Source of the DNA: an uncultured Armatimonadota bacterium
GTDB lineage: Bacteria; Armatimonadota; Fimbriimonadia; Fimbriimonadales; Fimbriimonadaceae
NCBI GenBank assembly: GCA_903833215.1
Contig: CAILEM010000125.1
Span: forward strand, 74,743 to 112,621
Direction of reading: 5' to 3'
DNA: 37,879 nt
Shown here in pieces: positions 7,966 through 35,236 of this stretch (position 1 is its first letter; each line of letters opens with the position of its first letter). The notes under the pieces were generated by a model. That model saw only the letters and a list, made by a program, of their open reading frames with translations. It did not search any database and was not told the origin of the DNA. A program made the translations under genes and the position numbers.

Positions 7966-8313
7966 TTGGCAAAAAAAACACAGAAAAAGCGCTTTCCGAT
8001 TTGGGCCATACCCATCATCTTTGGACTGGCATGTTTCTTCGGCACCCTAATGTGGAAATCGATGGTGGAGAAATCCCTTGAGAAGCGTCAAGCGTATGTC
8101 CTAGCAAGAGAGGCCTTCCACGTTATGCACCCAGAAGCAGACTTGCCATTGGCAGCCAAGGGTCTTGTTTGGACGGAAGAGGGAGCCGACAAGTACGTCC
8201 TTGAGGCTGACGGAGCCAAAGTCTTGGGCGGCAACCGAACCCCGGCTAGGTGGATTGTCAATCTTCGCCATGAGGGCGGTCAGTGGATGGTTGACGAATC
8301 CCGTTGGAAGTGA
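7966..8313 (+). CDS. Small single-pass membrane protein of unknown function
   Basis: The 115-residue product begins with a lysine-rich stretch (AKKTQKKRF), then one hydrophobic helix (residues about 11-30, IWAIPIIFGLACFFGTLMW), then an ~80-residue soluble domain ending RWIVNLRHEGGQWMVDESRWK. I do not recognise the family. The positive-inside rule puts the C-terminal domain outside the cytoplasm. The start is TTG at 7966 with GAGGG about eight bases upstream; a later ATG near 8050 would cut through the membrane helix. The WIVNL...GGQWMVDESRW ending resembles small domains of secreted NTF2-like or lipoprotein families in style only. It follows the prepilin-like gene across a hairpin and may act with it. 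Confidence 0.7.
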   Translation: MAKKTQKKRFPIWAIPIIFGLACFFGTLMWKSMVEKSLEKRQAYVLAREAFHVMHPEADLPLAAKGLVWTEEGADKYVLEADGAKVLGGNRTPARWIVNLRHEGGQWMVDESRWK

Positions 8314-15531: not shown

Positions 15532-16389
15532 ATGATTCTCAAGTCAATCAATTATTGGTCAATGTCTGGCGGGCTGGAAGGATCGCTTGATGTTTCGACA
15601 TTTCTTGCCGCAGCGAAGAAGTACGGCTATGATGCGGTCGAACTTTGTATTGGCGAGTCGGGAGCCTTGGGACTTGATGTTTCAGAGGCACGCTGCAAAG
15701 AGATCGCGGCAGAGGCGGACGAACTTGGTTTGATGATTCCCAGCACCGCATCTGGCCTTTACTGGTCACGCGCTCTTGGAGACGCAACCGAAGCGGCGCG
15801 CGCCCAAGCACTTGATGATTTGAAGAAGATGCTCAGAATTTCGGGTTGGCTCGGAGCCAAGACGCACCTGACCATTCCGGGGGCGGTTGAAGTCTTTTTC
15901 TTGCCAGAACGTGAGATCCTCGACTATTCGCATGTGTGGACTCACGCAACAGACGGTCTGAAAGCTGCGTTGCCCTTCGCCGAAGAAGCTGGCGTGAGGA
16001 TGGGAATTGAGAATGTCTGGAACAAATTCCTCCTTAGCCCCATGGAAATGCTTCGCTTCCTAGAGCAGTTTGATAGTCCATTCATTGGCTCCTATCTGGA
16101 CGTCGCCAACGTTCTTCCATTTGGCTATCCAGAGCAGTGGCTTCGCATTTTGGGCAGCAAGATCGTCGGAATTCACTTCAAAGATTTCAGAAAAGCGGTC
16201 GGCACGATCGAGGGATTCGTCGATCTACTTGAGGGTGACGTCAATTGGCCAGAAGTCATGAAGGCTATCGATGAGATCGAGTACTCCGGACCGGTCGTGG
16301 GAGAAATGATCCCTTACTACAAGCACTATCCTGAGGTTAGGTTGGCAAACACTTCGACCGCGATGGACGCGATTCTGGGGCGGATTTAG
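15532..16389 (+). CDS. Sugar phosphate isomerase/epimerase-family TIM-barrel enzyme
   Basis: A 285-residue AP-endonuclease-2/xylose-isomerase-like TIM barrel. The four metal ligands typical of sugar epimerases can be placed: Glu in MGIENVWNKF (about 158), Asp in SYLDVANV (about 190), His in GIHFKDFR (about 216) and Glu in VVGEMIPYY (about 263). The pattern resembles L-ribulose-5-phosphate 3-epimerase (UlaE/SgbU) and hexulose-6-phosphate isomerase relatives, and more broadly IolE/IolI-type enzymes. The exact sugar is unknown. The stop is followed one base later by the start of a Gfo/Idh/MocA oxidoreductase, so the two are translationally coupled and probably handle the same sugar: the oxidoreductase makes a keto-sugar that this enzyme isomerises, or the reverse. 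Confidence 0.9.
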   Translation: MILKSINYWSMSGGLEGSLDVSTFLAAAKKYGYDAVELCIGESGALGLDVSEARCKEIAAEADELGLMIPSTASGLYWSRALGDATEAARAQALDDLKKMLRISGWLGAKTHLTIPGAVEVFFLPEREILDYSHVWTHATDGLKAALPFAEEAGVRMGIENVWNKFLLSPMEMLRFLEQFDSPFIGSYLDVANVLPFGYPEQWLRILGSKIVGIHFKDFRKAVGTIEGFVDLLEGDVNWPEVMKAIDEIEYSGPVVGEMIPYYKHYPEVRLANTSTAMDAILGRI

Positions 16390-16390
16390 G

Positions 16391-17566
16391 TTGAGTAAAT
16401 CACTTCGAATCGGTGCCATCGGTTACGGTCTCCGCGGTGGCTTGTCGGTGATTTCCCATAAGCCAGAAGATGGGGTTGAGTTGGTCGTACTGGCTGATCC
16501 AAGCGAAGCGGCTCAAACCGCCTTTTTGGAAAAGGTCCCCGGGGCGACCGTTACGGCGAATTACCTCGACTTCCTGGAAATGAACCTGGATGCGGTGTTT
16601 GTGACTTCGCCCGACTGGTTACACGAGGAACAGGCTTCGACGCTTCTCGCGGCTGGAATCGGTGTCTATCTTGAGAAGCCAATGGCGATCACGACTGAAG
16701 GGTGTGACCGCATCCTCCAGGCGGCCAAAGATGGTGGCGGCAAGCTTTTTGTCGGGCACAACATGCGCCACTTCGGTGTGGTCAAAAAGATGAAGGAGTG
16801 GATTGATGAGGGCCGAATCGGTGAAGTCAAAGCCGCTTGGTGCCGCCACTTCGTCAGTTACGGTGGCGATGCCTATTTCCGAGACTGGCATGCCGATCGG
16901 ACCAAATCGACCGGGTTGTTGCTCCAGAAAGGAGCCCACGACATCGATGTCATTCACTGGCTGTGTGGTGGTTATTCCAAGACGGTAACCGCTCTCGGCG
17001 ATCTTGCTGTCTATGGCAAGATCGAGGACCGAATGACTCCTGATGAATCGATCAAGGTGGCTTTTCGGTCGACCTGGCCACCGGCCTCGCTGGACAAGTT
17101 GAACTCAGTTGTCGACGTCGAAGACATCAATATGATGTTGATGAAGCTGGATAACGGAGTTTTGGCCTCCTACCAACAGTGCCACTTCACGCCGGATGCG
17201 TGGCGTAATTACACCATTATCGGCACCGAAGGTCGAATCGAGAACATTGGCGATGCCCCAGGGGCAAGCACGATTCGGCTTTGGAACAAGAACCACCAAA
17301 AGTACGCCGAGCATGGCGACCTTGAGTTTGAGGTGCCCGTCGCTACGGGTGGACATGGTGGGGCAGATGAGCAAATTGTCGCTGAGTTTATCGACTACCT
17401 GCGAACTGGCGTGATGGCGGTGACTTCTCCAATCGCCGCACGCCAAAGCGTTGCCGCCGGTGTGGCAGCAACGTATTCGGTCCGGCACGGTGGTCAGCCG
17501 GTCGACGTTCCCGAGCTTGATCCCGCCCTAGCCAGCTACTTCGGAGGAGAGACCCCTTCGGTGTAG
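16391..17566 (+). CDS. Gfo/Idh/MocA-family NAD(P)-dependent oxidoreductase
   Basis: A 391-residue oxidoreductase with an N-terminal Rossmann fold (IGAIGYGLRGGL, an atypical but readable dinucleotide loop) and the family's EKP motif (YLEKPMAI, E95-K96-P97), whose Lys contributes to catalysis. The C-terminal sugar-binding half has GLLLQKGAHDIDVIHWLCGG, with the His/Asp set of the family. It starts with TTG one base after the isomerase stop; the next upstream in-frame codon is that stop, so the start is tightly constrained. It would oxidise a sugar, inositol or glycoside at a ring hydroxyl using NAD(P). There is no signal peptide. The 3' end faces a convergent gene of the same superfamily across an inverted repeat. 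Confidence 0.92.
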   Translation: MSKSLRIGAIGYGLRGGLSVISHKPEDGVELVVLADPSEAAQTAFLEKVPGATVTANYLDFLEMNLDAVFVTSPDWLHEEQASTLLAAGIGVYLEKPMAITTEGCDRILQAAKDGGGKLFVGHNMRHFGVVKKMKEWIDEGRIGEVKAAWCRHFVSYGGDAYFRDWHADRTKSTGLLLQKGAHDIDVIHWLCGGYSKTVTALGDLAVYGKIEDRMTPDESIKVAFRSTWPPASLDKLNSVVDVEDINMMLMKLDNGVLASYQQCHFTPDAWRNYTIIGTEGRIENIGDAPGASTIRLWNKNHQKYAEHGDLEFEVPVATGGHGGADEQIVAEFIDYLRTGVMAVTSPIAARQSVAAGVAATYSVRHGGQPVDVPELDPALASYFGGETPSV

Positions 17567-17620: not shown

Positions 17621-17823
17621 AGCGAGGCACGCCTTAATGTCAAACAGTTTTGGCAGAATGGTCTTGTTCTGTAGCTGTAGCATGGTTTTTGGCAGCGCAC
17701 CCAGCTCGCGGCTTGAACCCATTTTTGGTCTTGGCGAGCGGTCCGAACGCCGGTACAAGACATCCGGCGGCTACGGCGGCTGTTGAAATACCAAAACTGT
17801 TTGACATTAAGGCACGCCTCGCT
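17621..17823. repeat. 33-bp inverted repeat flanking a 137-bp structured spacer
   Basis: The arm 17621-17653 reads as the reverse complement of 17791-17823 at 31 of 33 positions. The two differences fall inside GGCACGCC, which stands in the same orientation in both arms (17626-17633 and 17811-17818). The right arm ends on the stop codon of the following minus-strand gene. The spacer holds further pairing, for example GTCTTGGCG with CGC..CAAGAC. A separate hairpin CTTACC/GGTAAG (17584-17602) and a 12-bp palindrome AGGGCATGCCCT (17571-17582) precede it. No transposase and no clear target duplication are visible. It could be a miniature element, a REP-like composite or a bidirectional terminator. 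This entry also accounts for the 255-base gap 17567-17821. Confidence 0.75.
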
Positions 17824-18802
17824 AGTGACTGTAGATTTGGCGGATCTCTTCGAGGGTCGTCTCAAGGGACTGGCGCGAGGTTTGCGGAGTTACGATTTCA
17901 AGTGGTAATCCGGCAGATAGGCGGTCCACAAAATACTTGAGTTCGTGGTAGTAGCCTCCGAGATCCGAGATGTTGCCACCACCGGCCGCTTCCATCTTAG
18001 GAATTTCAGGGACGACTGGTTCCTTGCCGTCTTCATAAATCGTCAGGGGGCCGGCATCCATGATCGCCGCACCCTTTTCGAAGATGGCTCGGAAGGCATG
18101 CTTGAACGGCGTTGAACTTGGAAGGTTCCAGCCACCCTCAAGGTGGGCGATCGTCTTTCCGTAAGTCATGGTGGTGAAAACTTGACCGGGACCTCGGTCG
18201 TCGACTGAACCCCATGAATGAATCGAATCTGGCTTGCCCAGAAGGTAGTGAACAAAATCAGTGTCGTGAACATGCATGTCCAAAACGCCACCACCAGATT
18301 TCGTCGAGTCTGCCAACCAGTTGTCGCTTGACCAACTCGGGAACGCTCCATAACGGGTGAGATTTACGGAAAGGAGGTTGCCGAGGGTGCCATTGTCGAC
18401 CAGCTTTTTCAGAATCGCATACTCCGGCCAGAACCGGATGCAGTGCCCGATCATGAGCGTCACTCCCGCCTTAGAACACTCCGATATCATCGCGTCTGCC
18501 TCGTCAAGGTTCAAAGCCATAGGCTTTTCGCAGAACACGTGCTTTCCAGCCTTCGCAGCCTCAATGGTGTAGTGGCTGTGGAGATATGTGGGAAGGCAAA
18601 TGTCAATCACGTCGAGTGACTCGCCTTCTAGCATTGCCTCAAGTGAGGGATATGCCTTAAGGCCAAACTCACCGGCATATTTCTCGACGACATCTGGTTT
18701 GATGTCGGCGGCAGCGACCAACTGTGCGCCTTCAAGCGTTCGATACACATTCGCATGCATCCGGCCCATGAAGCCGCAACCAACTAATCCAACTCTCAAC
18801 AT
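17822..18802 (-). CDS. Gfo/Idh/MocA-family oxidoreductase (second copy)
   Basis: A 326-residue NAD(P)-dependent sugar oxidoreductase. The Rossmann motif is textbook (MLRVGLVGCGFMGRMHA), the EKP motif is CEKPMAL (E92-K93-P94), and the catalytic segment is SGGGVLDMHVHDTDFVHYLLG. I start at ATG 18802, which begins directly at the first beta strand; the frame is open to a TTG at 18823, but neither site has a strong ribosome sequence. It shares the superfamily with the convergent gene at 16391 but differs clearly in sequence, so it is not a recent duplicate. It is divergent from a secreted glycosidase gene 81 bases away, suggesting that it processes the released sugar. Its stop codon lies in the right arm of the inverted repeat. 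Confidence 0.92.
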   Translation of the reverse strand: MLRVGLVGCGFMGRMHANVYRTLEGAQLVAAADIKPDVVEKYAGEFGLKAYPSLEAMLEGESLDVIDICLPTYLHSHYTIEAAKAGKHVFCEKPMALNLDEADAMISECSKAGVTLMIGHCIRFWPEYAILKKLVDNGTLGNLLSVNLTRYGAFPSWSSDNWLADSTKSGGGVLDMHVHDTDFVHYLLGKPDSIHSWGSVDDRGPGQVFTTMTYGKTIAHLEGGWNLPSSTPFKHAFRAIFEKGAAIMDAGPLTIYEDGKEPVVPEIPKMEAAGGGNISDLGGYYHELKYFVDRLSAGLPLEIVTPQTSRQSLETTLEEIRQIYSH

Positions 18803-18883
18803 GTCAGGTTTATGTTGGCCCAATTACTCTAAAACATGCATTTAGGCGGTCTTTAGTCGGCACCGGTAGTCTGGGTCCCAACG

Positions 18884-26905: not shown

Positions 26906-28186
26906 TTACTCCCTACCCGCGCCAACGTACAACTCTATGGGGTGATCGAATTCCAATTTAAAAACCGTCGAATTAGCATCAATCGCTTCTTCCGGCATAT
27001 CGATCCAGAGCATGCCGGGTGTCTCGCCTAAGCCCCCGATCGTCTTGTGTGTGAGCATTTGACCAGAGCTCAAAACAGATACTTTTGCGGGTGGTTTCAG
27101 AAGTCCTTTGACGGCGATTTGGTCGAAAGGCTTGTCGAAAATCATCAGGTACAGAACGTCCTTGGCTTTGTTCATCGTGGACGCGCCATAGAACAACCCT
27201 CCTGGAAGCCCAGCCACAGTGCCATAAACTGCTTCGGAGTGTCTTCGAATCCAGTCTCCTAGCCCTTCGAGCCTTTCGACTTGCTCTGGCTGAAGGCGAC
27301 CATCTTCGTAGGGGCCTACATCCAGCAGCATATTGCCGCCCATACCGATGGTTTCGGCAAACATCCGCACGAGTTGGCGAACAGACTTGTGATTGGTGTC
27401 CTGTCCCTGGTAACCCCAAGAGTCGTTCACCGTAACACAAAACTCCCAGGCTCCTTTGGGTGGAACGATTGGGATGCCTTGCTCTGGGGTCGCATAGTCG
27501 CCATAATCGCGAAGTCGTGAGTTGAAAATGGCTCCTGGCTGCCAGGCTTGGAGTTGATCGCGCAAACCTTTCATATCGAATTGGTCTGAATCGCGCTCCC
27601 ATTCACCGTCGAACCAATAGAGGTCGAGTTCGCCAAATTGAGTCGATAACTCCTCAAGCTGCTGGCGGTGGAACTTCAGAAAGTTTGCCCATCGCACTGG
27701 ATCCTGCTGGTCCGCTTCGCAGTATGCAAACCGATTGCCGAAACGAGAAGTGGCATATTCGGCGGGATCGTCTACCTTCGGCAGGATCGTTGCATAGTCG
27801 GGGTGAGACCAATCAAGGTGGGAGTAATAGAACCCGACCTTGAGGTTATGGCGTCGTAAGGCTTCAACGTATGGCGTGATCAGGTCTCTGCCCGCAGGAG
27901 TTTTATTGACGACGCTCAGGTCATTCGCTTTCGTGTCCCACAGTGCCACGCCATCGTGGTGTTTGGTGGTGAGGACGGCATACTTGGCACCGACCTTCTC
28001 AAAAAGCTCTGCCCAAGATTCTGGATCGTAGTTCGAAGCGGTGAAGCCCGAAAGCTGCGACATGTACTCTTCGTAGCTCACTTTGCCGTTGAAGAAAGAC
28101 CAAGACTCGTCAATTCCTTTGACGGCGTAGATCCCGTAGTGGATAAAGATCCCGAGCTTGGCGTCCAGAAACCATTGCTGCATCAT
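26906..28186 (-). CDS. GH29 alpha-L-fucosidase
   Basis: A 426-residue glycoside hydrolase family 29 enzyme that releases L-fucose from fucosyl glycans by a retaining mechanism. Hallmarks: WFLDAKLGIFIHYGIYA at the N-terminus (H16), AVLTTKHHDGVALWD (H76-H77), KVGFYYSHLDW, and LDLYWFDGEWE with D193 as the likely nucleophile; GGNMLLDVGPYEDGRL follows in the barrel's end. A C-terminal beta domain covers about 335-426. There is no signal peptide, so it would act in the cytoplasm on imported oligosaccharides. It is the second-last gene of the minus-strand operon and names its sugar: L-fucose is the probable inducer and substrate of the whole cluster. Confidence 0.95.
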   Translation of the reverse strand: MMQQWFLDAKLGIFIHYGIYAVKGIDESWSFFNGKVSYEEYMSQLSGFTASNYDPESWAELFEKVGAKYAVLTTKHHDGVALWDTKANDLSVVNKTPAGRDLITPYVEALRRHNLKVGFYYSHLDWSHPDYATILPKVDDPAEYATSRFGNRFAYCEADQQDPVRWANFLKFHRQQLEELSTQFGELDLYWFDGEWERDSDQFDMKGLRDQLQAWQPGAIFNSRLRDYGDYATPEQGIPIVPPKGAWEFCVTVNDSWGYQGQDTNHKSVRQLVRMFAETIGMGGNMLLDVGPYEDGRLQPEQVERLEGLGDWIRRHSEAVYGTVAGLPGGLFYGASTMNKAKDVLYLMIFDKPFDQIAVKGLLKPPAKVSVLSSGQMLTHKTIGGLGETPGMLWIDMPEEAIDANSTVFKLEFDHPIELYVGAGRE

Positions 28187-28228
28187 CCCGACAAGTTTAA
28201 GCCTTTCTCGCCAGACTATTCACGTTTC

Positions 28229-28966
28229 TTAACCAGTTTTTGCGCGATACCAGTATCGATATAGCGGTGTGTATCCGATCTTGCTGTAGAGACTAACGGC
28301 GGGGGTATTCGTTTCGACGACTTGGAGATACGCGGCGGTCGCGCCCCTCTCCTTGCCCCACTTCATCATGTTGAGGACAAGCTGATTGCCAAGGCCCATT
28401 CTGCGGAATTGGGTTGACGTGACGATGTCGAACAGTCCGATCCAACCTCTCTCGACAACGGCCAATCCGATGGCTGCAGGTTTGCCGTCGTGCCAAACCG
28501 AAGCGAAACCGTGATCGGGAACGATATTCGAAAGGATCTTCTCAAAGTAGGGCAGACGACCAGGGTCAATTTCCAGCATCGCCGCAGCAAGATCAAACCA
28601 AGCTGCCGATAAATCTGATTCAACGCGATAGTCAACGGACGGCACGGCGCGAAGTTGGTCGAGGTCGTGGGTCATGACCATTGCGTTGCCTTCGATTTGG
28701 TAGCCGCGATTGGCCAAGTTTGAATCTATTGTTGAGGAGTCATACAATCCTGCGAACTTGAAGACCGGGGAAGTATTGAAGCGCGAGTAGGCTTCCTCGC
28801 AAAAGTCAATTTTGAAGTCAAGAGGCAGTGTCGATGGGCCGAGGAAGTTGACGGAATTGGCTCGGCGCGTATGGTTCCCTGAGAGTCTCAGTACCCAATG
28901 ATCAAAGTGAACTTGGCGGACACCGGGCCACGCATTCAGGGCCAGTTCCTCAAGTAATTCGTTCAT
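28229..28966 (-). CDS. GNAT-family N-acetyltransferase
   Basis: A 245-residue GNAT protein. The C-terminal half (about 115-245) carries the acetyl-CoA motif A as TSTQFRRMGLGNQLVLNMM (R/Q-x-x-G-x-G/A) followed by ATAAYLQVVETNTPAVSLYSKIGY, the classic beta5-helix ending. The N-terminal half (about 1-110, NAWPGVRQVHFDHWVLRLSG, then RRANSV) matches a helper domain often found in front of such GNATs. The substrate is unknown; an amine or aminosugar is possible. It begins two bases after the SDR stop and is followed by the fucosidase 42 bases on, placing it firmly in the operon, though its chemistry has no clear slot in fucose breakdown. Confidence 0.9.
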   Translation of the reverse strand: MNELLEELALNAWPGVRQVHFDHWVLRLSGNHTRRANSVNFLGPSTLPLDFKIDFCEEAYSRFNTSPVFKFAGLYDSSTIDSNLANRGYQIEGNAMVMTHDLDQLRAVPSVDYRVESDLSAAWFDLAAAMLEIDPGRLPYFEKILSNIVPDHGFASVWHDGKPAAIGLAVVERGWIGLFDIVTSTQFRRMGLGNQLVLNMMKWGKERGATAAYLQVVETNTPAVSLYSKIGYTPLYRYWYRAKTG

Positions 28967-28968
28967 GG

Positions 28969-29781
28969 CTAACCCGAATACAGGGTGAGTCCTCCGTCAA
29001 TCCGTAAGGCCTGGCCGTGCACAAAGCTCGCCATGTCGCTGGCAAGAAATGCAACACCGTTGGCAATCTCACGCGGGTTGGCGTACCGATTCAAGCTGTA
29101 GCCTTCCTCCATGAATGTTGGATCCGTCTTCCGAGTGGCCATGAACCGACCCGTTTTGGTTGCACCAGGACTCACCACGTTGACTCGGACGCCTTGCTCC
29201 CGGGTCTCTGCCGCCAAACATCGAGTGTAGTGAACGATTGCTGCCTTTGCCGATCCGTAGGCGACTTCAGTGTCGCGGCCGAAGTGAGCCGCAGCCGATG
29301 CGATGTTGACGACCGCCCCTGTATGTCGCTCCATCATTCCAGGGACGATGGCACGACACATCAGCATGGTGCCAATGAGGTTCCGATCAAACAGGGCTCG
29401 GATGTCTTCCAGCTTTACGCCAAGGGCATCATTTGGATTTGGCTTTCCACCTTGCGCAGCGATATCGCCTCCCGCGCAATTCACAAGGACAGAAATGGGT
29501 CCAAGTGTGCTCTCCACCGCGGCCACCATCGCCTGGGTTGCCGATTCGTCCGAGATATCTCCGGTGACTGCCATTGCTCGAACACCCAGGGCGGCAATAC
29601 TTGCCGCTGAGGCATCAAGGTCGGCAAATTCGCCAAATTCGGCTGGGGCCTCTTGGCTTCGATCATGGATTGCGACGTCGGCACCGAGTTCGGCAAGTCG
29701 GTGGGCAATGGCGTAGCCAAGTCCGCGTCCAGACCCAGTTACAAGGGCGATTTTTCCTTCGAGCATCTTTGCGTCGTTCAT
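28969..29781 (-). CDS. SDR-family NAD(P)-dependent oxidoreductase (operon copy 2)
   Basis: A 270-residue classical short-chain dehydrogenase. Cofactor motif TGSGRGLG (about 15-22), NCAG in place of NNAG, catalytic Ser-Tyr-Lys in NIASAAAHFG and VAYGSAKAAI, and the closing FLASDMASFVHGQALRIDGG. I start at ATG 29781, whose ATGA overlaps the Nudix stop; the frame is open a further 44 codons inside the Nudix gene. Asp in the helix after the Rossmann turn (AIHDRSQ) suggests NAD. It is a candidate L-fucose dehydrogenase or 2-keto-3-deoxy-L-fuconate 4-dehydrogenase; both steps in known pathways are done by SDRs, and the operon encodes two SDRs and one MDR. Confidence 0.92.
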   Translation of the reverse strand: MNDAKMLEGKIALVTGSGRGLGYAIAHRLAELGADVAIHDRSQEAPAEFGEFADLDASAASIAALGVRAMAVTGDISDESATQAMVAAVESTLGPISVLVNCAGGDIAAQGGKPNPNDALGVKLEDIRALFDRNLIGTMLMCRAIVPGMMERHTGAVVNIASAAAHFGRDTEVAYGSAKAAIVHYTRCLAAETREQGVRVNVVSPGATKTGRFMATRKTDPTFMEEGYSLNRYANPREIANGVAFLASDMASFVHGQALRIDGGLTLYSG

Positions 29782-30236
29782 GAGAAATTTTCGGTGAGGA
29801 GATTCAGGGGTGCTGGCGCTTTCTGTGAAGCGTCGTTGATGATTTGGCGAATTGTATCTGGACTCACGAGATCTTTGTCGGGCAGTAGCTTTGCCTCGGT
29901 GATGTCCCACCATCGAGCGGCAAGAATCTCATCGCCTGCTCTCGCCAATTCTGGGGTGCGAACCGTCGCCGCAAATACGAATCGTATCGCATGATAACCG
30001 GTGCGGCCGATTCCCGAGTAGATTCCCACGAGGCCGTTCAGGTCTGCTTCGACCAAGGTTTCTTCAAAGAACTCTCGTTTAGCCCCACTCACCAAGGACT
30101 CACCAACTTCAAGGTGCCCCCCTGGGAGGTTCCACTTGCCATGGTTCTCCGGTTTGGATTCCTGAACCAGTAACACATGTTCGCCGAGCAGAGCGATCGT
30201 GCTCACATGGATAAGGATGCGCCGAACTTCGCTCAT
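29778..30236 (-). CDS. Nudix-family hydrolase
   Basis: A 152-residue pyrophosphohydrolase. The Nudix box GGHLEVGESLVSGAKREFFEET (cited partly: GGHLEVGES and REFFEET) matches GX5EX7REUXEE, with all metal-binding Glu present. The strands before it (ILIHVSTIALLGEHVLLVQE and KWNLPGGHL) fit the ADP-sugar/NTP subgroup. It would cleave a nucleoside diphosphate linked to another group, perhaps a nucleotide sugar or a damaged NAD(P). Both ends show ATGA overlaps: its start with the MDR stop and its stop with the SDR start, so it is translated as part of a chain. A housekeeping-type enzyme embedded in a sugar operon is unusual. Confidence 0.93.
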   Translation of the reverse strand: MSEVRRILIHVSTIALLGEHVLLVQESKPENHGKWNLPGGHLEVGESLVSGAKREFFEETLVEADLNGLVGIYSGIGRTGYHAIRFVFAATVRTPELARAGDEILAARWWDITEAKLLPDKDLVSPDTIRQIINDASQKAPAPLNLLTENFS

Positions 30237-31246
30237 GGTCGCAGTGCGATTTTGATAATGTCGCCTCGATTGGAGATCAGCTTTTCAAAGGCCTCTTGTC
30301 CTTGCTCCAACGGCATCACTTCCGTCCACGGATCGAAATGAGTGCCACCACGTATGACGAAATCGAGTGCGGCGGCATAGTCGAATTCCGTGTAGGCGAA
30401 GCTTGTCTGAAGTCGTACTTCACGGCGAACGAGGTCATAAAAGTCAAACGATGTCGGCCCTTCATCGAGTCCGAGGAGCAATGCGGTTCCACCTTTAGAA
30501 ACCACCTTTGCCGCGGCGTTGCGAGTATGGGTATTTCCAACCGCATCGATGGCGACGGGCACACCGAAACCATCAGTTAGGTCGAGGATCGCTTGCACCG
30601 CATCCGACGACGATGGGTCGACAATATTTGACGCGCCCAGCTTTCGTGCGACCTCGGCCCGTAACGCGTTCGGCTCAGAAACCGCGATGACATTGAGACC
30701 CCGTGCCTTTGCGACCGTCAAGATGCACGCTCCCAGCGTGCCGCCGCCAAGAATGACAGCAGAGGGCAACAAACCCGCCGAGGGTGGGATCATCGACAGA
30801 ATGTGAAAGGCATTCGCGAGCGGTTCCACCATGACGGCGGCCGCATCTGACACGGATTCTGGTAGCGGGTGAACATTTCGCTCGGGTACCACGACGAATT
30901 CAGCGAAGGCGCCCGGGGTGCTGTCCATTCCGAGCAGTCGCCAGTTGGCGCAACAGTTATGACGTCCGGCCCGGCAAGCAGGGCAGGTGCCGCAGCATAT
31001 TAATGGATTTACCGAAACTCGATTACCAACGAGTTGCGGGTTTCCCTCTACGACATGACCCACTGTCTCGTGCCCCAAAACCAGGCCGGGCTTGCGTCTG
31101 GCGCTGTGGCCCAGGAAGCCGTGGACGTCCGATCCACAGATTCCGGTTGCTGAGATCCGGACCTTAACTTCTTGCGGACCTGGAGTAGGTTCGGGGCGTT
31201 GTTGAATTTCAACCGCCTTGAGTGCGCTGTAAACAAGTGTTTTCAT
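30233..31246 (-). CDS. Zinc-dependent MDR-family alcohol/sugar dehydrogenase
   Basis: A 337-residue dehydrogenase of the sorbitol/threonine dehydrogenase type. The catalytic zinc ligands are visible: Cys in [11 protein letters not shown] (about 36), His-Glu in LGHETVGHV (about 58-59) and Glu in [10 protein letters not shown]. The structural zinc loop is complete with its cysteines ([16 protein letters not shown]). The cofactor fold is [16 protein letters not shown] start at ATG 31246, which overlaps the SDR stop as ATGA and has GGAGG 11 bases upstream; four codons earlier another ATG directly abuts that GGAGG. It would oxidise a secondary alcohol of a sugar or sugar acid with NAD(P). A role at 2-keto-3-deoxy-fuconate or at fucose itself is inferred from context. 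Confidence 0.93.
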
Positions 31247-32013
31247 TGGGCTGTCCATCCTCCATCAACATAAACGGTGCTGCCAGTAACGAACGAGGAG
31301 GCATTCGACGCGAGGAAAACGGCAACGCCAGCAATTTCTTCCAGTTCGCCCCATCTTCCCATCGGTATCTTTGATACGAAGGCTTTGTATTTTTCCGGGT
31401 CTTCCAGAAGAGGTTTATTCATGTCTGTTCCAAACGGGCCAGGGCAAATGGTATTCACCGTGACCCCTTTCTGGGCCCATTCGAGCGCCAGCACGCGGCT
31501 CAGGTTCGCGACTCCGGCTTTCGCGGCACAGTAGGGAGCTCTCCCAGGCAGAGCAACCGCACCCAGAATGCTGCCAAGGTTGATCACCCGCCCCCAACCT
31601 CGCTCACACATTTGGGGCCCAAGAATTCGTGAACAAAGGAAGGGTGCCTTGAGATTGATGCCAAGGACGGCGTCGAAATCTTCCTCGGAGAGCTCTTGGG
31701 CCAAGCCTCGTGTGTTGATACCAGCGTTATTCACAAGGATATCGATGGGGCCCAACTCGCTTTGAACCAGATCAATCGCCGATTGGACTTGGACGCTGTT
31801 TGTGAGGTCTGCTGTGGCAAACATCGTCCGTCTGCCCGTTTGAGCTGCGATGGCGTCGGCAGTCTGACGGCACTCAGATTCTGTCCGGCTCACGATACCG
31901 ACGTCCGCACCCGCTTCCGCCAGGGCGTTGGCAATGACCTTGCCCAATCCCTTTGACCCGCCGGTGACGAGGGCACGTCTTCCGTCGAGTCGAAAACTTT
32001 CGAGCACTTTCAT
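31243..32013 (-). CDS. SDR-family NAD(P)-dependent oxidoreductase (operon copy 1)
   Basis: A 256-residue short-chain dehydrogenase of the gluconate 5-dehydrogenase/KduD-like group: TGGSKGLGK cofactor loop, NNAGINTRG, Ser in [14 protein letters not shown] active-site pair, and the ending [14 protein letters not shown] start at ATG 32013, whose ATGA overlaps the TIM-barrel stop as with the next three junctions; an alternative ATG four codons upstream (32025) exists. The helix after the Rossmann turn begins VSRTESE with Arg, which hints at NADP use. It fits an oxidation of fucose to its lactone or of the keto-deoxy acid. It differs well from copy 2, so they probably serve different steps. Confidence 0.92.
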
Positions 32014-32984
32014 TTCGGTAGCCATCCAAGTTGCTGCATATTCTTCACACTCTTTTCCATCTGTTCTACTTCGTAGGCCGAGACCTGTTCACTGGTTTCA
32101 CCGCGTTCCAAGGGAGTCCTGTAATCTTCGCCGGCAGGAATCGCATTGATCGTGGAGGCATTGAGGCAGGCCTTGATCTGGTCAGGTGTCCGTTCTGGGT
32201 ATCCGTTCCACCATTCTTTGGTTAATAGACGGACATGGCGAGACTCGAGTGCCCCTGGTTCCAGCGAAGCTGTCAGTTGCTGGTGGTGATTGGCAAGAAT
32301 CGTATGGATCTCGGCAAGCGGCACTGCACCATCGCCAATAGCGCATCGGACGAGACGGTATCCCTCGGGAGTTGCTTGCGCCCGGTAGTCCTTAAGGTGA
32401 ACGTGACGAACATTAGGAGCAACGCGTTTTGCGAAGGAGATCGGGTCCTCTCCGACGGCAAGTGGGTTTCCCGTGTCCAGCGTGATTCCCATGGCGGGAC
32501 CGCCGATCTCACAAAACTCAAGAAGCTCTTCACTTCCAAAGTCTTGGTGATTCTCGATGGCGAGACAGAGACTCGCATCCGCGAAGGCAGGGCCAGTTTC
32601 GACGAGTTTGGTCCGAATGTCGCGGTTGAGCTCAGTCCACTTATCTCCCTGTGCCGCTCGGTCGCCGCAAAGGATTGGAGACAGATGGGTGCGCACGGTT
32701 CGGACTCCCAATTGATGGGCGACGGGAATGGATTCAGTGATGCGGTCTAGCGGCCAAGGACCGCTAATAATGGGCTCCAGGCCCGCTTCCTGGATGCGGT
32801 CCCTAACTCTGTTTCGTTCGTCATCGGAGAGGGCGCTTAGGTGCAGAAAGTGGAACTCGATGCAGCACGCCTTTGTGGACTCCGCGAGTTCGATGAACCA
32901 CCAAACATCCTTTGGTTTCGGCAGGTTTGCTTGCAGCCCGAGGGTGCAGCAGAGCCCATATGGGTTCGGGCCGACTTTGAACAT
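32010..32984 (-). CDS. Xylose-isomerase-like TIM-barrel enzyme of sugar metabolism
   Basis: A 324-residue AP-endonuclease-2-fold protein. The metal ligands are readable: Glu in [10 protein letters not shown] (about 146), Asp in [11 protein letters not shown] (about 172), His in HVHLKDYRA (about 198) and Glu in ASLEPGALE. The residues C-terminal of the barrel (about 265-324) form a helical extension with [11 protein letters not shown] start at ATG 32984, two bases past the FAH-gene stop; the frame is open 28 codons further, but inside the FAH gene and without family character. Relatives include epimerases, inosose dehydratase (IolE) and 3-dehydroshikimate dehydratase, so isomerase and dehydratase are both possible. 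Position between a hydrolase and dehydrogenases makes it a candidate for the otherwise missing dehydratase. Confidence 0.88.
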
Positions 32985-32986
32985 CG

Positions 32987-33793
32987 CTATGCTTCGTCGA
33001 TAACGGGGTTTGTGAGCGTTCCGATGCTCTCGATTTCGATGGAAACGGTGTCTCCCGCCTTCAGCCACGTTGGAGGCTTGTGTGCCATTCCGACACCGTG
33101 AGGCGTGCCCGTGAGAATCACGGTGCCAGCCGCCAAGGTCGTGCTACCACTTAGGAATTCGATAAGGGCAGGAACATCAAAGATCATGTCGTTTGTATTC
33201 CATGACTGAACCTCTTTGCCATTGAGGATCGTTTTGATGGCGAGGCGATTGGGATCGGGAATCTCATCCGTGGTGACAATCGCGGGCCCGAGGGGGCAGA
33301 AAGTATCGAAACATTTGCCACGACACCACTGGCTACCGCCACGCTTGATCTGCCAATCTCGCGCGCTAACATCATTGGCGCACGTGTATCCGAGCACGTA
33401 CTCAAGGGCGTTCTCACGGCGAACGTTTTTGCAGTTTTTGCCGATAATCACGGCAAGTTCGCATTCGTAATCCACTTCATCGCTGGCCAAAAAAGTTGGG
33501 AGGATAATCGGGTCGCCAGGGTTCTGAACGGTATTGGGAGTCTTGATGAAAAGAATCGGGTACTCGGGGATCTTTGCCCCCGACTCTTCGGCATGGTGCC
33601 GATAATTCAGGCCGACAGCCATCACCGAATTGGGAACGAGGGGAGCCAGGAACTTACTGACACTGAGAGTTTTTCCCGTTGGGAGCAGTTCGCCAAACAG
33701 GTCGCCTTCTAGTCCGCTGACGGTTCCGTCAGGGTTCAGCGAGCCAATTTGTTCTTGTCCTAATTCGTCAAGCACACGGACGATTTTCATCAT
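32987..33793 (-). CDS. Fumarylacetoacetate hydrolase (FAH)-family protein, candidate 2,4-diketo-3-deoxy-sugar-acid hydrolase
   Basis: A 268-residue FAH-fold enzyme. The metal-binding acidic residues are E110 and E112 in DYECELAVIIGKN and D141 in CANDVSARDWQ; VGLNYRHHAEE, ILFIKTPNTV and ILTGTPHGVGMA are the usual core blocks. The length is the short bacterial form. In non-phosphorylative L-fucose/L-rhamnose pathways a protein of this family splits 2,4-diketo-3-deoxy-L-fuconate (or -rhamnonate) to pyruvate and lactate; here that reading rests on its neighbours, including the fucosidase. Other family members are isomerases, decarboxylases or acylpyruvases. The start is ATG-ATG at 33793/33790; neither has a strong ribosome site. 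It is the first enzyme gene of the operon. Confidence 0.92.
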   Translation of the reverse strand: MMKIVRVLDELGQEQIGSLNPDGTVSGLEGDLFGELLPTGKTLSVSKFLAPLVPNSVMAVGLNYRHHAEESGAKIPEYPILFIKTPNTVQNPGDPIILPTFLASDEVDYECELAVIIGKNCKNVRRENALEYVLGYTCANDVSARDWQIKRGGSQWCRGKCFDTFCPLGPAIVTTDEIPDPNRLAIKTILNGKEVQSWNTNDMIFDVPALIEFLSGSTTLAAGTVILTGTPHGVGMAHKPPTWLKAGDTVSIEIESIGTLTNPVIDEA

Positions 33794-33837
33794 CCAGAGT
33801 TTGCACGATTAGGGTTAGGATTAGGTCACGTCGGCAA

Positions 33838-34125
33838 TTAGTTGCGACGTGCTTTACTTCTTGATCGTCCGAGAGCCTTTTGTTGTGATAACTGCTCCAG
33901 TTGACCAAGAACCTCGTCAGTCTCGTCTTTTTTATCCGGGTTCGCAATGTAGGCTTGGGCACCAGCGATGAGGCCAAATCCGACAGCGGTGATGGATAGC
34001 AGGGCGATTGCGAGTCTGTAACCAGTGATGTAGCCAAACAGCCAAATCACGGAACCCAAAATGACGGACGCAAGCAGACCTGCTTGTATCCCGGCACGTA
34101 AGCGCTCAACCCTTTCGGATCTCAT
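33838..34125 (-). CDS. Small two-TM membrane protein with coiled-coil tail, first gene of the operon
   Basis: A 95-residue protein: a basic N-terminus (MRSERVERLRAGIQ), two hydrophobic helices (about 14-34 and 37-60), then a charged tail with heptad-like EVLGQLEQLSQQKAL and a basic end (GRSRSKARRN). I do not recognise it. The start ATG 34125 is chosen over 34152 because the longer frame would include the promoter -10 box. No Shine-Dalgarno is seen, and the predicted transcript begins at or next to this ATG, so it may be read as a leaderless message. The FAH gene follows 44 bases on. A transport-accessory role is a guess only. Confidence 0.65.
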   Translation of the reverse strand: MRSERVERLRAGIQAGLLASVILGSVIWLFGYITGYRLAIALLSITAVGFGLIAGAQAYIANPDKKDETDEVLGQLEQLSQQKALGRSRSKARRN

Positions 34126-34131
34126 GCCACA

Positions 34132-34160
34132 GTTATACCGGCGATTACACAAATGTTCAA
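34132..34160 (-). promoter_or_regulatory. Sigma-70-like promoter of the fucose-type operon
   Basis: On the minus strand, TTGAAC (34160-34155) and TATAAC (34137-34132) lie 17 bases apart. The -10 matches at five of six positions. The expected start point, about seven bases beyond, falls at 34125, the A of the first ATG. An operator-like palindrome (34166-34178) sits just upstream of the -35. Confidence 0.55.
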
Positions 34161-34165
34161 GTCAA

Positions 34166-34178
34166 TTTAACCGTTAAA
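34166..34178. promoter_or_regulatory. LacI-type operator-like palindrome, promoter-proximal
   Basis: TTTAACCGTTAAA is a perfect 6-bp inverted repeat about one central C, placed at roughly -41 to -53 of the predicted transcript. LacI/GalR-family proteins bind AT-flanked palindromes with a central CG, and the TTTAACCG half also occurs at 34315-34322. No LacI gene is in the window. Confidence 0.45.
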
Positions 34179-34235
34179 CCTCATGTTGAGAATAAATTGG
34201 CAATTCTTTGCCTAGTTTTCAGGTTTTGTTTTTCC

Positions 34236-34265
34236 TGAATTCAGGTTCATTTGAACCTGAATTCA
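34236..34265. repeat. 14-bp perfect palindrome with TT centre
   Basis: TGAATTCAGGTTCA (34236-34249) is followed, after TT, by its exact reverse complement (34252-34265). Each half also contains an internal palindrome around GAATTC. It lies between the two operator-like sites and downstream of the lactonase gene stop, reading in either direction. It could end lactonase transcripts or bind a dimeric regulator. The rest of the 34153-34375 gap shows no gene. Confidence 0.7.
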
Positions 34266-34313
34266 AGGGAGACACGACGCGAGTAACCAAAGACACCAAA
34301 CTTGTTTTGCATT

Positions 34314-34329
34314 GTTTAACCGGTTTAAC
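34314..34329. promoter_or_regulatory. LacI-type operator-like site, promoter-distal
   Basis: GTTTAACCGGTTTAAC contains the 8-bp palindrome AACCGGTT (34318-34325) with AT flanks, a typical LacI/GalR half-site arrangement. It lies about 148 bases from the proximal site, a distance at which repressor looping is possible. It is only 46 bases from the stop of the lactonase gene. Confidence 0.45.
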
Positions 34330-34375
34330 TTCGGGAGAATAAATGCATGCAGCCTTTGTGTGCCTTTTGAATCCA

Positions 34376-35236
34376 TTAAGGCGCCGAAATTTGTGATCGA
34401 AACTCAGGAATGCCTGCTACTCCAGCGGAAACTTCGAACAAGGCTCCGGCAAGGGGGCCATCGGTTTCTTTCACATTGCCTCCAGCGGTAGTGATGTACA
34501 TCACGTCGTAATTTTCACCACCGAAAGCCACGCAGGAAACCTTTCTGGCCGGCAGGTTTAGCCGTGTGAGCTCAACCCCTTCGGGCGAGTATTTCACAAT
34601 GCAGCCGCCATCCCACCGTGTCGACCAAATATCGCCATTTCCGTCGACGGTCATCCCATCCGGCCATCCGCCTCCTTCTTCGGTTGTGATCAGCACCCGC
34701 TGGTTGGTAAGTTCTCCCGTTGATCTCTCGTAGTCAAACACATAAATCGTGCGCTTGCCGGTATCGGTGTAATACATTTGCTTAAGGTCAGCGGTAAACC
34801 CCATCCCGTTCGAACAACCGATTTCTTGAAGGAGAAGGTGAATCGAACCATCGGTGTCTAGCCGGTACAGCCGCCCAAGGCGGTCCTTTGTTGGCATGGT
34901 TCCACAGAAAACACGGCCCTCAGGGTCGGCAATGACGTCGTTAAAGCGAGTCTCCCACTCATCGGGGATCTCTTCAAGAACGGTGGTGAGGGTGCCATCC
35001 CGAAGAATCTTGACGGCCCCCCTTGCCATGAAGAGGAGAAGGGAACCGTCCTTTTGTAGCGTCATCCCGCCAACGGGCTCGCCTTCAAAGCACACTTCAT
35101 GGTGACCCGATGCAGGTTCATAGCGAAAAAGGCGACCATTCGGGATATCTGTCCAGTAGACGCGTTTTTCGTCTGGGTGCCACAAGGGGCCCTCTCCAGT
35201 GTGGCAAGCGTAGTCAGCGATTAATCGTGGTTCCAT
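34376..35236 (-). CDS. SMP-30/gluconolactonase-family sugar lactonase
   Basis: A 286-residue six-bladed beta-propeller of the SMP-30/LRE family. Metal ligands are in place: Glu in TGEGPLWHP (about 15), Asn in TRFNDVIAD (about 98), Asn in CSNGMGF (about 142) and Asp in GWPDGMTVDGNG (about 192). Such enzymes open aldonolactones to aldonic acids (gluconolactone, L-arabinonolactone, L-fuconolactone and others). There is no signal peptide. GGGGAG seven bases before ATG 35236 marks the start. It stands upstream of the fucose-type operon on the same strand but is separated from it by a 223-base regulatory gap, so it has its own promoter; it fills the lactone-opening step of the proposed pathway. Confidence 0.93.
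   Translation of the reverse strand: MEPRLIADYACHTGEGPLWHPDEKRVYWTDIPNGRLFRYEPASGHHEVCFEGEPVGGMTLQKDGSLLLFMARGAVKILRDGTLTTVLEEIPDEWETRFNDVIADPEGRVFCGTMPTKDRLGRLYRLDTDGSIHLLLQEIGCSNGMGFTADLKQMYYTDTGKRTIYVFDYERSTGELTNQRVLITTEEGGGWPDGMTVDGNGDIWSTRWDGGCIVKYSPEGVELTRLNLPARKVSCVAFGGENYDVMYITTAGGNVKETDGPLAGALFEVSAGVAGIPEFRSQISAP

Follow-up and report, generated by a model that had tools for sequence, protein, structure and literature searches.

A putative non-phosphorylative aldose-oxidation operon in an uncultured Fimbriimonadaceae bacterium and a candidate dehydratase encoded on another contig

Described pathways and the Fimbriimonadaceae operon

Route 3, the non-phosphorylating pathway of L-fucose, comprises FucM, FucA, FucB, FucC, FucF and FucG (PMC11199699, PMC6336799). 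In this study, we analyzed a stretch of 37,879 nucleotides (G000:C125:74743-112621, the window hereafter) from the 6.22-Mb genome (G000, 168 contigs) of an uncultured Armatimonadota bacterium of the Fimbriimonadaceae. Ten consecutive minus-strand genes at positions 26906-35236 of the window, most of them overlapping or abutting, are separated by -16 to +44 bases, with a single exception of 223 bases after the SMP-30 lactonase gene. This run is probably an operon of the "route III" kind for the non-phosphorylative oxidation of an aldose, in which ENO1, an enolase-superfamily protein encoded on another contig, would act as the dehydratase and a TIM-barrel protein (TIM) would contribute an additional epimerase or isomerase step. 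Literature searches found no work on this pathway in Armatimonadota; only a Fimbriimonas genome paper was retrieved. In operon order, the genes are as follows.

34376..35236, minus strand: SMP-30/gluconolactonase family lactonase, 286 amino acids (aa), first gene (SGL PF08450, 243.5 bits)
33838..34152, minus strand: small conserved open reading frame (ORF), 104 aa, without a Pfam match
32987..33793, minus strand: FAH-family hydrolase (FAA_hydrolase PF01557, 256.6 bits)
32010..32984, minus strand: TIM, xylose-isomerase-like TIM barrel, 324 aa (AP_endonuc_2 PF01261, 60.1 bits; gathering score 31.1)
31243..32025, minus strand: SDR2, short-chain dehydrogenase (SDR) with a YxxxK motif (PF13561, 220 bits)
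30233..31258, minus strand: zinc-dependent medium-chain dehydrogenase (MDR; PF08240 and PF00107)
29778..30236, minus strand: NUDIX hydrolase (PF00293)
28969..29781, minus strand: SDR1, short-chain dehydrogenase (PF13561, 176 bits)
28229..28966, minus strand: GNAT-family acetyltransferase (PF00583 and PF24553)
26906..28186, minus strand: GH29 alpha-L-fucosidase, last gene (PF01120, 279.7 bits)

As in route 3, dehydrogenases, a lactonase and an FAH-type hydrolase are clustered, and the genome encodes an enolase-superfamily dehydratase, which in the relative G016 lies within the operon itself. The gene content fits the succession of dehydrogenase, lactonase, dehydratase, second dehydrogenase and FAH hydrolase that had been proposed in the first-pass annotation of this DNA. 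However, the dehydratase that goes with the operon is of the DgoD type, which is not known as a fuconate-dehydratase type, and the lactonase belongs to the SMP-30 family, whereas the L-fucono-1,5-lactonase of the literature is an amidohydrolase (cog3618). A third dehydrogenase is present in addition, as is the TIM barrel, and the cluster contains no mutarotase or transporter gene. Overall, the operon would work like route 3, from which it differs in the DgoD-type dehydratase, the SMP-30 lactonase and the added TIM/SDR step. What had been suspected to be a missing-enzyme case can now be discussed in terms of a named gene, ENO1, with the G016 operon as a point of comparison.

The FAH hydrolase links the operon to the non-phosphorylated L-rhamnose pathway (LRA5/LRA6), as it is homologous to the L-2,4-diketo-3-deoxyrhamnonate hydrolase (PDB 8GSR; 180.9 bits). 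Its best NCBIfam match was 2,4-didehydro-3-deoxy-L-rhamnonate hydrolase (NF053535). From its sequence, cleavage of a 2,4-diketo-3-deoxy sugar acid is predicted, which would yield pyruvate plus a hydroxy acid. Compared with the L-rhamnose pathway, TIM and the GH29 fucosidase are extra here, and the match to NF053535 reached 215.9 bits, below the specific cut-off of 500.

The seven genes named in the first-pass annotation (GH29, two SDRs, zinc MDR, FAH, TIM barrel and SMP-30) were all recovered at their positions by Pfam families; the GNAT, NUDIX and small conserved ORF genes of the same run are additions to that list. The order FAH-TIM-SDR2-MDR-SDR1 is repeated in four congeneric genomes (G004, G012, G016 and G019), and the run of genes is therefore not a product of chance. 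Orthologues in these operons share 58-78% identity for SDR2 and 61-68% for MDR, and the lactonase is 56% identical to its G016 counterpart, which is placed between ENO1 and FAH. A homologue of the small ORF lies immediately upstream of FAH in G004 (62% identity), and the GNAT gene also occurs within the G019 and G012 operons. The NUDIX gene, which sits between MDR and SDR1 with 4-base overlaps, was seen in the window operon only and was not present in the four congeneric operons (L027-L030).

ENO1 and its distribution

No enolase-superfamily gene had been noticed in the window by the first-pass annotation, and indeed all MR_MLE_C matches of the genome were located on other contigs. Three proteins scored above the family cut-off, among them ENO1 (G000:C129:84856-86031, 392 aa), the sole enolase-superfamily sugar-acid dehydratase of the genome. 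The second matched a cis-3-hydroxy-L-proline dehydratase model (604 bits, cut-off 500), and the third most resembled amino-acid racemase/epimerase models without reaching their cut-offs. ENO1 exceeded the cut-off of the NCBIfam galactonate dehydratase model (NF010624; 326.8 versus 311 bits) and was 41% identical to E. coli DgoD over 367 aligned residues. Its residues D199, E225, E251, H201, H301 and E326 correspond to the metal ligands of DgoD and to the equivalents of DgoD H185, H285 and E310. ENO1 is thus a predicted dehydratase of the D-galactonate-dehydratase type. It differs from E. coli DgoD in forming a group of its own at 75-92% identity and in its surroundings: the dgoK-dgoA-dgoT genes flank dgoD in E. 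coli, whereas ENO1 is adjoined by an SDR, a ceramidase-like gene or the operon described here.

The search for a dehydratase covered further families. The genome yielded no UxaA/altronate-type (PF04295) protein, and apart from ENO1 a single sugar-acid dehydratase was detected, of the YjhG/YagF D-xylonate type; IlvD is also encoded. An IlvD/Edd route was set aside, as IlvD and the YjhG/YagF D-xylonate dehydratase are unlinked to the operon, and is kept as a remote alternative source of dehydratase activity. The D-xylonate dehydratase gene (L006, G000:C124) adjoins another FAH-type gene, and the two probably represent a separate pentose pathway.

Gene content, gene order, conservation and co-occurrence were observed directly, as were family membership and the conserved catalytic residues. 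Among 61 genomes spanning the genus, family and order, a TIM gene with 52-58% identity was detected in G004, G012, G016 and G019 besides the genome under study. Orthologues of ENO1 (78-92% identity) were found in exactly these operon-bearing genomes and were missing from the remaining 56 relatives covered by the search, whose best match was 32% identical. The chance of such a five-genome coincidence is ~2e-7 in the 61 genomes and 6e-5 within the 20 genus genomes, without correction for descent. In G016, the operon reads ENO1-SMP30-FAH-TIM-SDR2-MDR-SDR1, with ENO1 at L039 6131-7309, followed by the SMP-30 gene ending at 8204 and then by the remaining genes in this order. The ENO1 gene thus either became detached from the operon in the studied genome or entered it in G016. 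Of the two explanations offered earlier for the dehydratase missing from the window, its being encoded elsewhere was borne out by the genome-wide search, which identified ENO1 on contig C129, and by its orthologue, with which the G016 operon begins.

Of 291 genomes surveyed in the phylum, 25 encode ENO1 orthologues, which formed a tight group (75-92% identity), with all other proteins at <=49%. TIM homologues were present in 38 genomes, and both genes occurred together in 17, compared with 3.3 expected. Counted by genus, the overlap was 10/16 (Fisher p ~3e-5, uncorrected for phylogeny). In the distant genome G075, SDR1 (60% identity) is located directly downstream of ENO1, and a second cluster contains FAH (66%), TIM directly downstream of FAH, two SDRs and a ceramidase-like gene. 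Beyond the phylum, three Planctomycetota genomes with the arrangement TIM-SDR2-(MDR)-SDR1 carry an unlinked ENO1 with 80-85% identity, a level unusually high between phyla that suggests transfer of the gene.

In two of these three genomes, the ENO1 cluster includes an SDR and a ceramidase-like gene, and in the third a ceramidase-like gene. An ENO1 cluster that often includes an SDR (27-33%) and a ceramidase-like protein is common to Armatimonadota and Planctomycetota (G000:C129:84856-86031 and neighbours; L163-L165, L217-L219).

The TIM-barrel protein and its SDR1 partner

The TIM protein is most likely a metal-dependent enzyme. E144, D170 and E242 were invariant and H196 nearly so in an alignment of 30 sequences, and these residues are metal ligands in the xylose-isomerase-like superfamily. 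Superfamily and fold are shared with IolE (myo-inosose-2 dehydratase), but the score against the IolE model TIGR04379 was 25.1 bits, far from the cut-off of 290. The closest fold match of the AlphaFold2 model (pLDDT 95.9) was the isomerase Art22 (Z 26.1, rmsd 2.6, 251 residues), on which no paper was found in the literature. This was followed by D-tagatose/ketose 3-epimerases (Z ~23), AsbF and IolE (Z 21-22) and YcjR (Z 20.8). Assignment of a function from fold comparison was set aside, as epimerases, isomerases, dehydratases and C-glycoside enzymes all fell within Z 20-26.

SDR1 (at least 44% identity) is located downstream of TIM in 66/74 loci from several phyla, and the pair is common to Armatimonadota, Planctomycetota, Chloroflexota, Acidobacteria and rhizobia. 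The loci of Mesorhizobium, Kaistia and relatives mostly comprise a repressor, a sugar ABC transporter, an SDR, TIM and SDR1, without FAH or a dehydratase; transporter and repressor were assigned by eye from the sequences rather than by model. Planctomycetota loci contain TIM, SDR2, MDR and SDR1. For some TIM loci of other phyla, the flanking regions were scanned against Pfam and showed unrelated genes only. In a test of 30 genomes, SDR1 orthologues were detected in seven with TIM and in none of the eight with ENO1 but without TIM, and SDR1 therefore follows TIM rather than ENO1. These results point to a widely shared TIM-barrel/SDR pair, which could extend the known non-phosphorylative pathways by a step.

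Because ENO1 tracks the operon and heads it in G016, TIM need not be a dehydratase. TIM probably catalyzes an extra step as a predicted keto-sugar epimerase or isomerase, which is the simplest reading because the operon has three dehydrogenases compared with two in the standard pathway and because two dehydrogenases surround TIM in most lineages. A comparable system occurs in E. coli, where YcjR acts together with the dehydrogenases YcjS and YcjQ in the interconversion of glucosides and gulosides (PMC11543891). The placement of a TIM-barrel epimerase between two sugar dehydrogenases, together with a sugar ABC transporter, is analogous to the architecture of the rhizobial TIM loci. However, the dehydrogenases described here are SDRs, and the observed likeness to YcjR is one of architecture and fold.

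In three Planctomycetota loci (L056, L094 and L106), a second TIM-barrel-like gene (~286 aa, judged from sequence) follows TIM-SDR2-(MDR)-SDR1.

Proposed pathway, its sugar and alternative readings

In the proposed pathway, the dehydrogenase steps, which in route 3 fall to L-fucose 1-dehydrogenase and L-KDF 4-dehydrogenase, would be divided among three candidates, SDR2, MDR and SDR1, none of which scored high enough for a curated equivalog model among those listed; we infer the assignment of each to a step. SMP-30 would open the lactone, ENO1 would perform the dehydration from its separate contig, and FAH would split the final 2,4-diketo-3-deoxy acid into pyruvate and a hydroxy acid, which would be lactate in the case of a 6-deoxyhexose. 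TIM would act as a metal-dependent epimerase or isomerase on a keto intermediate produced by its usual partner SDR1. Several observations weigh against this pathway. ENO1 is unlinked to the operon in four of the five congeneric genomes, where any co-regulation with the operon is putative, and eight genomes of the phylum encode ENO1 without TIM, so that ENO1 also serves elsewhere and is not bound to TIM. The FAH hydrolase scores below the curated threshold of the one hydrolase model that is specific, the operon is without any transporter gene, and ENO1 lacks the lysine of the KxK motif, the base that enzymes of the enolase superfamily are expected to use on 2S acids, L-fuconate among them.

The role of TIM allows several alternatives. 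It had been suggested in the first-pass annotation that TIM replaces the missing enzyme in a variant pathway; it would then dehydrate the aldonate by an IolE-like mechanism. The superfamily does include IolE and the 3-dehydroshikimate dehydratase AsbF, to both of which the model aligns, and no dehydratase gene is found near TIM in the rhizobial loci. However, an enolase-type dehydratase tracks the operon and shares a single operon with TIM and FAH in G016, the IolE cut-off is missed by a wide margin, and D-tagatose 3-epimerases and an isomerase match TIM no worse than dehydratases do. In addition, the substrate of an IolE-type dehydratase has to be a beta-hydroxy ketone, and aldonates are not. 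Little positive support is left for TIM as a dehydratase, and we consider this role very unlikely. A more specific form of the epimerase/isomerase role is quite possible, though we give it somewhat less than an even chance: TIM, SDR1 and one of SDR2 and MDR would form a module resembling YcjS-YcjR-YcjQ that oxidizes, epimerizes and reduces, converting sugar stereoisomers to feed the oxidative pathway. This would be consistent with the tight TIM-SDR1 linkage, with the presence of SDR1 orthologues in TIM-bearing genomes and not in those with ENO1 only, with the rhizobial units, which hold no further pathway enzyme, with the Planctomycetota arrangement, and with fold matches that include YcjR and ketose 3-epimerases. 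Against it, a fold match cannot separate the epimerases of the superfamily from its dehydratases or hydrolases, and more distant TIM homologues (families f12 and f13) are without an SDR1 orthologue. We are more tentative still, to the point of thinking it rather improbable, about the wider proposal that TIM-SDR1 with SDR2 (and MDR) is an uncharacterised stereo-inversion module shared by many bacteria, acting on an unphosphorylated sugar or sugar acid and joined here to non-phosphorylative degradation so that a D-galactonate-type dehydratase can process an otherwise wrongly configured sugar. Alternatively, SDR1 could be the 2-keto-3-deoxy acid 4-dehydrogenase, with TIM acting on its product or a side product, so that the pair would constitute the lower half of the pathway. 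The two clusters of G075, with SDR1 next to ENO1 and TIM next to FAH, are in line with this. However, SDR1 is missing from the eight genomes with ENO1 but not TIM, and MDR-type enzymes are known for the 4-dehydrogenase step or the first step (PMC6336799), which makes such an arrangement unlikely.

For the pathway with ENO1 as dehydratase and TIM as an added step, the sugar, L-fucose or another, is likewise inferred. The GH29 gene closes the operon in three of the five genomes (83-84% identity in G019 and G012), which argues for L-fucose and makes L-fuconate a plausible substrate. However, ENO1 has the DgoD-type histidine, which in the enolase superfamily accompanies 2R acids, and L-fuconate is 2S; the absence of the KxK lysine from ENO1 likewise means that L-fucose may be the wrong sugar. 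The genome also encodes an L-fucose isomerase on C129 (L216:6084-7898) with a class II aldolase gene ~5 kb away (L216:12806-13534, G000:C129), and it has four FGGY-kinase matches; L-fucose or D-arabinose may therefore also be handled by an isomerase route alongside the operon. The operon might then serve L-fucose indirectly or not at all, its sugar being a 2R-configured aldose (e.g., D-galactose, D-fucose or L-rhamnose), with L-fucose handled by the isomerase route. The fucosidase gene is not present in the G004 and G016 operons, which would agree with such a division. Conversely, GH29 is a recurrent tail gene, fucose pathways draw on the same FAH and dehydrogenase families, and L-fucose isomerases accept D-arabinose too. 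We regard a 2R aldose as possible but doubtful. The earlier "L-fucose-type" label is plausible from GH29 but tentative, given the type of ENO1 and the L-fucose isomerase. Because of these two features, the aldolase and the FGGY kinases, we refer to a non-phosphorylative aldose pathway rather than to an L-fucose pathway.

Elsewhere in the window, the plus strand carries a second pair at 15532-17566, which from sequence inspection consists of an apparent TIM barrel of the AP_endonuc_2 type and an oxidoreductase of the Gfo/Idh/MocA type; a further oxidoreductase is located nearby at 17822-18823.

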